DNA of 64,000 nucleotides from Thalassomonas viridans (GTDB lineage: Bacteria; Pseudomonadota; Gammaproteobacteria; Enterobacterales; Alteromonadaceae). The notes beneath the pieces were generated by a model that did no database searches, was not told where the DNA came from, and saw only the letters and a program-made list of their open reading frames with translations. Of the stretch, positions 59,121-64,000 are shown in pieces (positions within the stretch are counted from its first letter, which is position 1; each line of letters opens with the position of its first letter). The stretch spans positions 682,001-746,000 of the forward strand of contig NZ_CP059734.1 in the NCBI RefSeq assembly GCF_000948985.2. Direction: 5' to 3'. The translations under genes were made by a program, and so were the position numbers.

Positions 59121-59357
59121 CTTGTTATATATGACATGGCAGGGCGCACCAACTGTTTTGAGAAAATATTGAAGTAAGCCTGGGAACCTTAGATGCTTTA
59201 GCCGGTGTTATTTACGATCCAGGCTGAAATGTTCACCGCCAAGCAGTAGCAACATCAACATCAACAATAAATCGCCCCATAAAATATGCTGTTTTTCTGG
59301 AGACACTTGAAAAATAAACAAACTCTCGGCTCCGTTTGGTTAATAACCCCATGTTTT

Positions 59358-59851: not shown

Positions 59852-60142
59852 ATGTTTGATATTATGGGTGAGGATTTGCGTTATATGCGCCTGAGTGTAG
59901 ACAAATCTACCAAGGAAATGGCACGAAAAACAGGGATCAGCCGGGTTAGCTATGTAAATTGGCAAACCGGTGTTGGTAAGCCAAAGGTGAACCGATTTAT
60001 TGATATTAGCCGTATTTGTTCGTTGAGTATGGCTCCCTTGTTTGAGCAAATCTCGACACTTAGAGATCAATTTAATAAAAGGGACGAAAATGAAACACTT
60101 CGAAAAGTTCGTAAACGCGCCTCAAAAAGGCTCAAAACTTGA
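59852..60142 (+). CDS. Small HTH protein
   Basis: 96 residues from the ATG at 59852, preceded by AGAGGGA. HTH-like core: MGEDLRYMRLSVDKSTKEMARKTGISRVSYVNWQTGVGKPKVNRFIDISRICSLSMAPLF. The tail is Lys/Arg-rich and overlaps the next gene by 53 bases. It follows a leader of about 170 bases after the operator-controlled promoter. Likely a second regulator in the same circuit; a longer frame reaching upstream lacks a ribosome site. Confidence 0.7.
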   Translation: MFDIMGEDLRYMRLSVDKSTKEMARKTGISRVSYVNWQTGVGKPKVNRFIDISRICSLSMAPLFEQISTLRDQFNKRDENETLRKVRKRASKRLKT

Positions 60143-60281
60143 TACTTCAATCAACTTCACTGCCAATATGCTGGCCGGTATTTCCGGCGGCGTAGGTAGC
60201 GGTGGACATACGCCACCAAGACCACAGGTCGCTAACCCGTTGGCGGACGACAACGGAACTTTATCGGTCACCGGCAACTAA
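60090..60281 (+). CDS. Small peptide with Gly-Gly motif, possible precursor peptide
   Basis: 63 residues. An N-terminal, helix-prone, charged part (MKHFEKFVNAPQKGSKLDTS) is followed by INFTANMLAGISGG and then a Gly/Pro/His-rich tail (VGSGGHTPPRPQVANPLADDNG). The ISGG point resembles a double-glycine leader end, so it could be a secreted or modified peptide precursor. It has its own AAGGGACG site although it overlaps the HTH gene. No homologue recognised; function unknown. Confidence 0.55.
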   Translation: MKHFEKFVNAPQKGSKLDTSINFTANMLAGISGGVGSGGHTPPRPQVANPLADDNGTLSVTGN

Positions 60282-62481: not shown

Positions 62482-62909
62482 ATATCTGCAGGCTATGTAT
62501 GTGACCCTGGTTTTTTCACTGCGCTGGTAGTGTGGCTCGGCATGGCTGTTGTGCCTTATTTATGCATTTGTGCCTGTTGGCCGATGTGGCAACTGGCATC
62601 TGCCAATTATATCGAGCATTACGGCTTGCAGAGACAACAAATCCCGGAAGGGCGGTACGAGCAGATACAGCTGCATCACAGCTGGAACAGCGATCATATC
62701 TTTTCAAACTGGGCGCTGTTCCATTTGCAGCGTCATTCAGATCATTATGCCAACGCCGCGCGCAGTTATCAGGTGTTGCGCCATTTTAATGGACTGCCTA
62801 CTTTGCCAAGTGGGTATTTCGGCATGTATATCCTGGCTTATCTGCCCAGGTTATGGTTCAAGGTGATGGATAAGTGCCTGCTGCAAGTAACCGGCGGTGG
62901 TATCAGTGT
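62482..62909 (+). pseudogene. Truncated, frameshifted copy of alkB
   Basis: Closely matches 48360-48785 of the intact alkB: WLGMAVVPYLCICACWPMWQLASANYIEHYGLQRQQIPEGRYEQIQLHHSWNSDHIFSNWALFHLQRHSDHYANAARSYQVLRHF. The first two thirds, including the HELGH and HNRGHH boxes, are missing. Near 62505-62520 one base is lost relative to the parent, shifting the frame. The last histidine box is changed from HSDHH to HSDHY. It cannot encode an active enzyme. Confidence 0.88.
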
Positions 62910-62994
62910 GGCTGGGAGGGTCAAGTCTTTCATTTTGCAATAACTTTAAATTCATTTATTAAATCATTGAAAAGAGAATCATTGATAACTCCTC

Positions 62995-63032
62995 CTGCTT
63001 AGCTGCTTAGCTGCTTAGCTGCTTAGCTGCTT
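62995..63032. repeat. Octanucleotide microsatellite
   Basis: AGCTGCTT repeated four full times (63001-63032) plus a partial copy before it. It lies just upstream of the small-RNA array. Confidence 0.9.
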
Positions 63033-63138
63033 TGTGCAAAAAGGATTTACTTTGCAAAAAACAAAATTTGACCCCACAGCCCGAGAGCTATTGAGTATTT
63101 CTTTATTTGGGAGACTCTAGGTCCAATTTTTAAAAAGT

Positions 63139-63251
63139 TAACAACAAAACTTTGTTTTGGGTTTCCTATATATGGGTGGTTTCAATCAACCTATATTTCA
63201 TGAAACTTCACCCGGGACGAGCAATAGTGATTTCACTGTTGCTCGTTTTTT
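63139..63251 (+). ncRNA. Candidate small RNA, array unit 0
   Basis: First of five tandem units. A relaxed box TAACAACAAAAC (63139) is followed by a short hairpin (GGTT/AACC, 63178-63191), the element TTCATGAAACT (TGAAACT at 63201), and a terminator with stem CGAGCAA...AGTGA / TCACT...TTGCTCG (63218-63245) and six T. The terminator stem differs from those of units 1-4. No open frame fits. Function unknown. Confidence 0.55.
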
Positions 63252-63318
63252 GTATCATCTGCTCTTTCTCGGGTGCCGAGCAAATAAAGTACTTTTATTT
63301 AAAAAAACACTGAAAGTT

Positions 63319-63446
63319 ATAAACAAAAATTACCCTGTTGTTTCTTAGCGTTGATGGACGAGTTTTGTATCAATTAATAAATCCTGAAACTATAATGCAA
63401 TTTTGCCAGTAACAGCCTGCGTGCTTGTTACTGGTTTTTTTATTTT
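63319..63446 (+). ncRNA. Candidate small RNA, array unit 1
   Basis: Box ATAAACAAAAA at 63319; TTTCTTAG; weak hairpin TTGAT/ATCAA (63351-63373); AAATCCTGAAACT (TGAAACT at 63384); terminator CCAGTAACA (63406-63414) / TGTTACTGG (63426-63434) with T7. Same subtype as unit 3. Confidence 0.7.
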
Positions 63447-63478
63447 ACACTCAGTTAGAGTGCCTTAGCCGTTTAGCT

Positions 63479-63596
63479 ATAAACAAAAAGTTATTTAGCG
63501 TGTCATACTATGTAATTAGTTTTTTTAAGACTAATTTTCATGAAACTGGAGCTTGAGCCAATAACAACTACGGTGGTTGTTATTGGTTTTTTTATT
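63479..63596 (+). ncRNA. Candidate small RNA, array unit 2
   Basis: Box ATAAACAAAAA at 63479; hairpin AATTAGT/ACTAATT (63514-63536) with TAAG at the loop end; TTCATGAAACT (TGAAACT at 63541); terminator CCAATAACAAC (63558-63568) / GTTGTTATTGG (63576-63586) with T7. The G-C to A-T pair change in the stem relative to units 1, 3 and 4 preserves pairing. Confidence 0.7.
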
Positions 63597-63653
63597 TCTT
63601 CTAACCTTCTTAGAGCCTGTTCAAGTATAGTTTTTAGTCTTTTCAAAAAAATC

Positions 63654-63777
63654 ATAAACAAAAATTTATTAACTGTTTCTTAGAAATGAGAAGTTTTTGT
63701 ATTAACCAACAAATCCTGAAACTAAAATGCATTTTCGCCAGTAACAGCCAACGTGTTTGTTACTGGCTTTTTTATTT
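63654..63777 (+). ncRNA. Candidate small RNA, array unit 3
   Basis: Box ATAAACAAAAA at 63654; GTTTCTTAG as in unit 1; AAATCCTGAAACT (TGAAACT at 63717); terminator GCCAGTAACA (63737-63746) / TGTTACTGGC (63758-63767) with T6. Very similar to unit 1 along its length. Confidence 0.7.
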
Positions 63778-63822
63778 TTAAATTCATTTAATTAAAAAAA
63801 TCCAGTTTTTTTAAAAAAAACT

Positions 63823-63946
63823 ATAAACAAAAACTTTTTTGCCGTTTCTCATGGATGATTAGTTCTTGTAAGACTAACGACTTCTAACTTCGATTGAGCA
63901 GATTTAGCCAGTAACAGTCCATGGGGGGTTACTGGTTTTTTTATTT
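63823..63946 (+). ncRNA. Candidate small RNA, array unit 4
   Basis: Box ATAAACAAAAA at 63823; GTTTCTCATG; hairpin TTAGT/ACTAA (63859-63877) with TAAG at the loop end, as in unit 2; a weakened TCTAACT where other units have TGAAACT; terminator CCAGTAAC (63908-63915) / GTTACTGG (63928-63935) with T7. After it, CTCAGTTA repeats the sequence that follows unit 1, so another unit may start just past 64000. Confidence 0.68.
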
Positions 63947-64000
63947 TATTCTCAGTTACAGTGCTCTAATTAATTTTCGGTTGTTCTTTATATATCTTTT

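Follow-up and report, generated by a model that had tools for sequence, protein, structure and literature searches.

The smaller replicon of Thalassomonas viridans carries a tandem array of five short units that, judged from their sequence, appear to be species-specific sRNA genes of a type III secretion system (T3SS) regulon. The array (u0-u4) spans about positions 63134-63947, on the plus strand, of the window, by which we mean the whole 64,000-nucleotide stretch analysed, bases 682001-746000 of contig C2 (1,218,661 bases) in a genome of two contigs and 7.95 Mb. The five units are a real and complete array, and we consider it probable that they are independent sRNA genes, each with a promoter of the T3SS regulon and its own terminator, switched by an ECF sigma factor and working as sibling base-pairing regulators. 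Each unit would lead from a bipartite promoter of the T3SS type through a body of 43-51 nt to an intrinsic terminator with a U-rich tail, and expression of all five would follow that of the T3SS, most likely through the ECF sigma factor of the T3SS cluster. The original prediction of an sRNA array at this place was right in outline and mistook a conserved box for RNA. The features are listed below, with the 5' end of each RNA assumed to lie 7 nt after the second promoter box and with ranks referring to a T3SS promoter matrix that contains no unit:

63136..63169, plus strand: u0 promoter-like site, with AACA at 63143-63146 and GTTTCCTA at 63161-63168; rank 15 (two boxes) and 39 (all columns) among 2,437,256 C2 positions
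63175..63255, plus strand: u0 predicted RNA of about 81 nt, body type C; terminator stem-loop 63218-63245
63315..63348, plus strand: u1 promoter-like site; rank 5 (two boxes) and 10 (all columns)
63354..63446, plus strand: u1 predicted RNA of about 93 nt, body type A; terminator stem-loop 63406-63434
63475..63508, plus strand: u2 promoter-like site, the weakest of the five; rank 13 (two boxes) and 104 (all columns)
63514..63598, plus strand: u2 predicted RNA of about 85 nt, body type B; terminator stem-loop 63558-63586
63650..63683, plus strand: u3 promoter-like site; rank 5 (two boxes) and 7 (all columns)
63689..63778, plus strand: u3 predicted RNA of about 90 nt, body type A; terminator stem-loop 63737-63767
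63819..63852, plus strand: u4 promoter-like site; rank 1 (two boxes) and 8 (all columns)
63858..63947, plus strand: u4 predicted RNA of about 90 nt, lacking TGAAACT; terminator stem-loop 63908-63935

The layout first described holds in most of its parts. The conserved box ATAAACAAAAA stands exactly at 63319, 63479, 63654 and 63823, u0 has the variant TTAACAACAAAAC at about 63138, and TGAAACT is present in u0-u3 and absent from u4. Every unit does end in its own Rho-independent terminator: five strong intrinsic terminators lie on the plus strand of window 63001-64000 and none on its minus strand, while 300 dinucleotide shuffles of the same stretch gave a mean of 0.007 and a maximum of 1. The stem change between CCAGTAAC/GTTACTGG and CCAATAAC/GTTATTGG is compensatory, as had been claimed; as an argument for selection on RNA structure it is thin, with few changes available, namely one G-C to A-U change common to u2 and c1 (a copy on chromosome 1, see below) and further changes in the divergent u0, and the c1 terminator contains one broken pair. 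Pairwise comparison of u0-u4 and c1 shows relatedness among the unit cores once the terminator is left out (z 3.3 to 10.8); the u0 terminator has at most weak similarity to the others (z 1.7 to 3.0), and the spacers are unrelated (z -1.8 to 2.2), apart from the pair that follows u1 and u4 (z 4.1). Since the units are related and the spacers mostly are not, the unit is the conserved thing. A covariance model built on u1-u4 only, the check proposed at the outset, found u0 at 46.7 bits. No further unit was found in the 14 kb beyond u4, and no sigma-70-like site on the plus strand of the array.

The DNA just upstream of the array holds a fragment of a fatty-acid-desaturase-like protein (PF00487; window 62503-62943), apparently cut short, and, just before u0, an 8-nt unit, CTGCTTAG, repeated four times head-to-tail (window 62995-63034). 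Farther upstream lie a fragment of a DoxX-like gene (window 59208-59324), whose full copy is found beyond the window at C2:746864-747298, and a short Gly-rich ORF (MKHFEKFVNAP...; window 60090-60281) beside a helix-turn-helix-like ORF, which by eye resembles a peptide precursor.

The box itself, initially taken for part of the RNA, is from its sequence context better read as a promoter element, the upstream half of a bipartite DNA promoter with the motif AACA, 14 nt, GTTTCTTA. The same motif precedes T3SS genes located at a distance of 50-168 kb on this replicon, and it also occurs at the matching T3SS promoters of a congener (G001). Two extra sites in the own genome, C2:869204 (24.0 bits) and C2:827959 (21.4 bits), surfaced in a search with a terminator-free covariance model (R3), both upstream of T3SS-region genes and both with the unit box, exactly ten bases and the second conserved word; their R3 scores alone are at the level of chance matches elsewhere, and their support comes from later tests. 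With up to two mismatches, box and second word occur on C2 at 13 places with 10 nt between them; for spacings of 9 and 11 nt the counts are 6 and 3, and with the second word reversed 4. A matrix from the seven units only places seven of its eight best C2 sites outside the array within 790-918 kb (p 1e-6), the T3SS region, which makes up 10.5% of C2; 7 of the 10 top C2 sites of the units-only matrix fall in that region, against a mean of 1.5 and a maximum of 6 for 40 permuted matrices. When nine sites are used, 15 C2 positions reach at least 16 bits, seven of them training sites and six of the other eight in the T3SS region, and 400 kb of chromosome 1 (6% of it) contain no site of at least 16 bits (best 14.6).

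Approached from the T3SS side, a matrix from three T3SS promoter pairs of two species, free of any unit, ranks the units 1, 5, 5, 13 and 15 among 2,437,256 C2 positions when the two boxes are scored and 7, 8, 10, 39 and 104 on all columns, and a leave-one-out test of 18 sites left 17 of them unsurpassed by any non-site C2 position and the eighteenth surpassed by one; the T3SS promoter windows of both tests were first located with matrices or models containing units, so that the motif tests are not fully independent, and an ungapped matrix fixes the spacing by construction, so that only the seven units and the two R3 sites show it freely. One matrix test on C2 was partly circular and given no weight. 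The reverse test with the units-only matrix gave low scores for three of 11 gene promoters (ranks 119, 121 and 160), and a gene-only matrix ranks u2 at 70 only. The 13 best C2 sites comprise five array sites with a terminator within 260 nt and eight T3SS-region sites without one. Subject to the circularity just described, the units thus have in common with T3SS genes the promoter that marks sRNAs of a T3SS regulon, and since the same kind of promoter stands before both, the RNAs are probably made together with the T3SS. Lower-scoring matches at C2:639537, 980637, 283978 and 793631 (15.5-17.0 bits with the 18-site matrix) may be further regulon members or chance.

The T3SS cluster, with its own ECF sigma factor, lies outside the window at C2:795-918 kb; a simple calling rule yields 121 ORFs in C2 790-918 kb. 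SctN, SctC, SctR and SctU score above NCBIfam cut-offs, and SctQ-like and SseC-like proteins above Pfam cut-offs; an SctP-like protein is above the cut-off of Pfam HpaP and below that of NCBIfam, and SycD/LcrH-like (97.2 vs 104.8) and CesT-like (19.4 vs 22) proteins remain below cut-off. The ECF sigma gene (C2:854502-855107, 201 residues; TIGR02937 60.3 bits, cut-off 42.9) is directly before the sctP-like gene, with sctN, sctC, sctR and sctU nearby, so the regulon's cluster holds the kind of sigma factor that an ECF promoter calls for; the assignment of the motif to this factor draws on neighbourhood and on the AAC word. Apart from the query itself, a search with the sigma protein found three further proteins, two of them 71% identical and one 27%, the closest named homologue being that of Thalassomonas sp. 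RHCl1 (71%). Two motif sites of the region are followed by genes for proteins of 301 and 296 aa (C2:817459-818364 and 828154-829044) that belong to no Pfam family; both match the same stretch of the congener's C2 by tblastn and are therefore probably paralogues.

In this congener, 14 of 19 T3SS-region proteins have a tblastn match within the first 800 kb of its C2, and its sigma factor is 69% identical to the own one. As in the own genome, motif sites precede the SycD-like gene and lie between the SctO-like gene and the ORF that follows it, and a third precedes an operon matched by eye; when the intergenic regions of the two genomes are aligned, common blocks lie at the two boxes. The best site of the units-only matrix in the congener (17.9) is outside the T3SS region and equals the mean of permuted matrices (17.9, maximum 24.6), and the four best sites of a 15-site matrix are all in the T3SS region, the best (23.2) exceeding the permuted maximum of 20.9. 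The congener has the same secretion system, sigma factor and promoter motif and no detectable RNA units, which we read as a recent gain of the units and not as proof that they are junk.

Further copies are found on chromosome 1. A sixth unit, c1 (C1:1076516-1076640; 71.9 bits with the covariance model of u1-u4), is followed by a decayed one, c2, which has no terminator (20.7 bits with a model not containing c2). In three congeners the upstream response-regulator gene and the next conserved stretch are about 85-90 bases apart; the own genome has about 2.9 kb between them, a species-specific insertion. The insertion (L037:6840-9623) carries c1, c2 and an ORF and has, near both ends, inverted repeats of 174 nt, 83% alike, that correspond to the ends of an IS element, by eye of the IS630 type. 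Four near-full copies of the element are present on C2, two of them within 790-918 kb; those near 786.5 and 1141 kb are most similar to the left end of the insertion (94%), and the right end is 86-88% identical to all four. From this we infer an IS-mediated transfer from C2 to C1. At the array locus, homology to the two congeners in which the neighbouring operon is present ends just past the last gene of that operon, before the array. That the units might be the RNA component of a defence or mobile system is not borne out by a blastn comparison of the array and c1 loci, which have only the units in common; no gene was seen at both, and what survives of the mobile link is the position of c1 inside an IS-bounded insertion. 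Unit c2 retains its promoter-like site and is followed directly by an ORF of about 150 codons (L037:7657-8247, C1 near 1076656-1077246), possibly a gene of the T3SS regulon; a search with it returned only itself, with nothing in three congeners or plasmids.

With the box as the -35 part of a promoter, the RNAs would measure 81-93 nt for u0-u4 and 84 nt for c1 from the assumed start, and the 110-130 nt originally expected for an RNA starting at the box is probably too long. The bodies between promoter and terminator diverge into three types: type A is formed by u1 and u3 (39 of 48 positions alike), type B by u2 and c1 (38 of 42, with promoter sites that agree in 22 of 34) and type C by u0 and c2 (27 of 39), and the u4 body stands apart, weakly related to the others. 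The left end of c1 is like u4 (27 nt, 96%) and its body like u2, which suggests exchange between units. A central hairpin, proposed as a common fold, was not recovered: once the terminator is removed, folding of u1-u4 and c1 resembles that of shuffles (z -0.45 to +0.74), u0 is the only unit that folds better (z -2.18), and the bodies alone fold no better than shuffles (z -0.8 to +1.6). A shared GTTTC/GAAAC helix, which is broken in u2, u4 and c1, and a shared inner hairpin, which does not hold across units, were rejected. With bodies that fold no better than shuffles, a seed would stay open beside the U-tailed terminator, the form known for Hfq-dependent sRNAs, and the RNAs may bind Hfq. A peptide-coding repeat was also rejected, as the ORF lists of u0-u4 and c1 contain no common reading frame; u2 and c1 alone have in common a 19-codon ATG frame, open to the unit end, in which differences are mostly amino-acid-changing and no ribosome site is seen (both by eye).

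We scanned 834 C2 genes for targets, and no seed beat its 12 shuffles, so that base pairing is put forward here as a proposal. The nearest candidate, the type B body at the start of C2:837882-838490, reaches -21.0 kcal/mol (shuffled best: mean -20.0, extreme -22.1 kcal/mol), and an antisense start-site pattern, matched at four places of the own genome outside the units, yielded no convincing start-site target. The RNAs would act as sibling base-pairing regulators, for example in feedback on secretion or on envelope genes, with tandem copies raising the dose and offering different seeds. The notion of a multi-copy regulatory sRNA family is supported in part, by the promoter-like motif, frameless short body and terminator of each unit and by related units on the other contig; at the level of sequence, the array has the several homologous units, each with promoter-like site and terminator, that make up sibling sRNAs.

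At the sensitivity used, no homologous array was found in relatives, an outcome that the original prediction had counted against itself. Searches were made with the covariance model of u1-u4 (R1) in 98 genomes, with a further model (R2) in 36 genomes and then 395 of the family and with the terminator-free model (R3) in 394 genomes of the order, with rough model E-values and stricter filters in the large searches, and convincing matches were confined to the own genome. Elsewhere, R1 gave matches in 3 of 97 genomes (E 0.055-0.092), R2 in 6 of 35 (E 0.088-0.87) and in 5 of 394 (E 0.00015-0.0078, four of the five in one genus), and R3 in 56 of 393 at E up to 0.02, none above 23.8 bits, where the own units score 49.9-66.2 bits. 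Eight weak R1/R2 loci that were aligned (including L030, L031 and L032) are terminators with little of the core, a weak R2-type locus, L058, is by eye a gene end with its terminator, and both of the two R3 matches inspected among the 56 are coding-like by eye. A phage or plasmid element was rejected, the array having no blastn match among 50,697 phage and 72,556 plasmid records. One unit sequence pattern had no matches in genome contigs; a second matched three viral and two genome contigs, and the four of these five that were inspected (not L056) are coding by eye. R2 found nothing at the five pattern sites, its two matches (22.1 and 13.0 bits) lying elsewhere in L054. A 27-nt stretch of another genome (G028, L023:1501-1527) matches u3 at 96%, with an E-value of 1.2e-5 for one genome, better than chance; it lies antisense in what by eye resembles a radical-SAM gene, and a protein query from it found nothing in the own genome. 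Rfam 15 gave no match at gathering score in the whole window, and with E up to 5 the nine matches in 63050-64000 and six around c1 were all below gathering (best MIR169_2, 22.8 vs 50); the Qrr covariance model (RF00378) reached 17.8 bits (gathering 50, E 2.1). Literature searches by title, with most subscription journals outside their coverage, returned no description of such a system and, for Thalassomonas and type III secretion, nothing on this regulon.

Among the competing readings, the closest keeps the same RNAs and lets the promoter answer to a T3SS activator, for example an AraC-like one, instead of an ECF sigma factor. We regard this as possible, though unlikely: the sigma link is by neighbourhood only and A-rich boxes also occur for AraC-type T3SS activators, but AACA with a second box at a fixed distance fits an ECF promoter and is seen in 18 of 18 sites (with spacing given by construction for the ungapped-matrix sites), and no AraC-type gene was seen by eye among the 121 ORFs of the region. 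It is improbable that the units are a promoter decoy, in which five terminator-closed T3SS promoters soak up sigma factor or activator and damp the regulon while the transcripts are inert. Five promoter-like sites within 0.8 kb, divergent bodies without a common fold and a target scan that found none would suit such a role; against it, a decoy has no need of a conserved body, and u2 and c1 have kept 38 of 42 body positions on different contigs compared with 22 of 34 promoter positions, and u1 and u3 have kept 39 of 48.

Much the same doubt attaches to functionless leftovers of tandem duplication and IS activity, a view favoured by the missing homologues in the relatives searched, the lost terminator of c2 and the placement of c1 in an insertion bounded by IS ends; against it, both promoter boxes and a strong terminator persist in all five units of the array amid diverged spacers. 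Very unlikely is the reading of the box as part of RNAs of about 110-130 nt. The box is the most conserved stretch, and that of u3 can pair with a U-rich stretch in the predicted fold, yet box and second word precede T3SS-region genes in two species with no terminator within 260 nt.

In its copy layout the array resembles LhrC1-5, in its regulatory link InvR, and in the proposed rule of an ECF factor over a T3SS the HrpL regulon. The LhrC family of Listeria monocytogenes has five related sRNAs, transcribed from individual promoters under a single regulator, LisRK; lhrC1-4 share a locus and lhrC5 lies elsewhere (PMC4132741). Our array is like this family in having several related units at one locus, a copy elsewhere and a predicted promoter each; the LhrC sRNAs belong to another phylum, are virtually identical copies and reach their targets via CU-rich UCCC motifs (PMC4132741), whereas the regulator here would be that of the T3SS, no LhrC match appeared in the Rfam searches and no repeated UCCC was seen by eye in the bodies. 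InvR of Salmonella SPI-1 is switched on together with the T3SS through HilD and HilC and, as a negative feedback, represses translation of hilA (PMC11925239); like the predicted units it is an sRNA in a T3SS regulon, and unlike the array it is single-copy and under AraC-type activators (PMC11925239). The units had no InvR match in the searches of Rfam, which may or may not include InvR. By analogy, feedback on secretion, as for InvR, is plausible. Sibling sRNAs such as csRNAs, Qrr, OmrA/B, PrrF1/2 and AbcR1/2 have redundant or separate roles and are in some cases tandem (PMC4211561), and the array is like them in having several related units in tandem in one genome; as tabulated there, their tandem sets are mostly pairs, Qrr genes are distal and csRNAs (2-6) distal or tandem (PMC4211561). 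In Pseudomonas syringae the ECF sigma factor HrpL controls the T3SS via a bipartite promoter box, and the relevant passages deal with protein genes and give CCAC as second half of the hrp box, which differs from GTTTCTTA (PMC3879358). Sibling sRNAs and T3SS-regulon sRNAs are known kinds; their combination is the unusual part, and the regulatory link to the T3SS is the new element.

More speculatively, it is possible, though unlikely, that the units form a cassette-like sRNA bank, with common promoter and terminator ends and exchangeable bodies reshuffled between units and replicons, fired by the T3SS sigma factor. If this were true, RNAs with different seeds would form a modular arm of the T3SS programme. 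With ends alike and middles unlike, the predicted sRNA genes offer a natural case for studying how sibling sRNAs acquire new targets, and the array illustrates that conservation of a box among sRNA copies can reflect a promoter element instead of RNA. The analysis also yields a promoter motif and a candidate sigma factor for the T3SS regulon and, if the units are transcribed, a large tandem sRNA set wired to the T3SS regulon in a marine genus.
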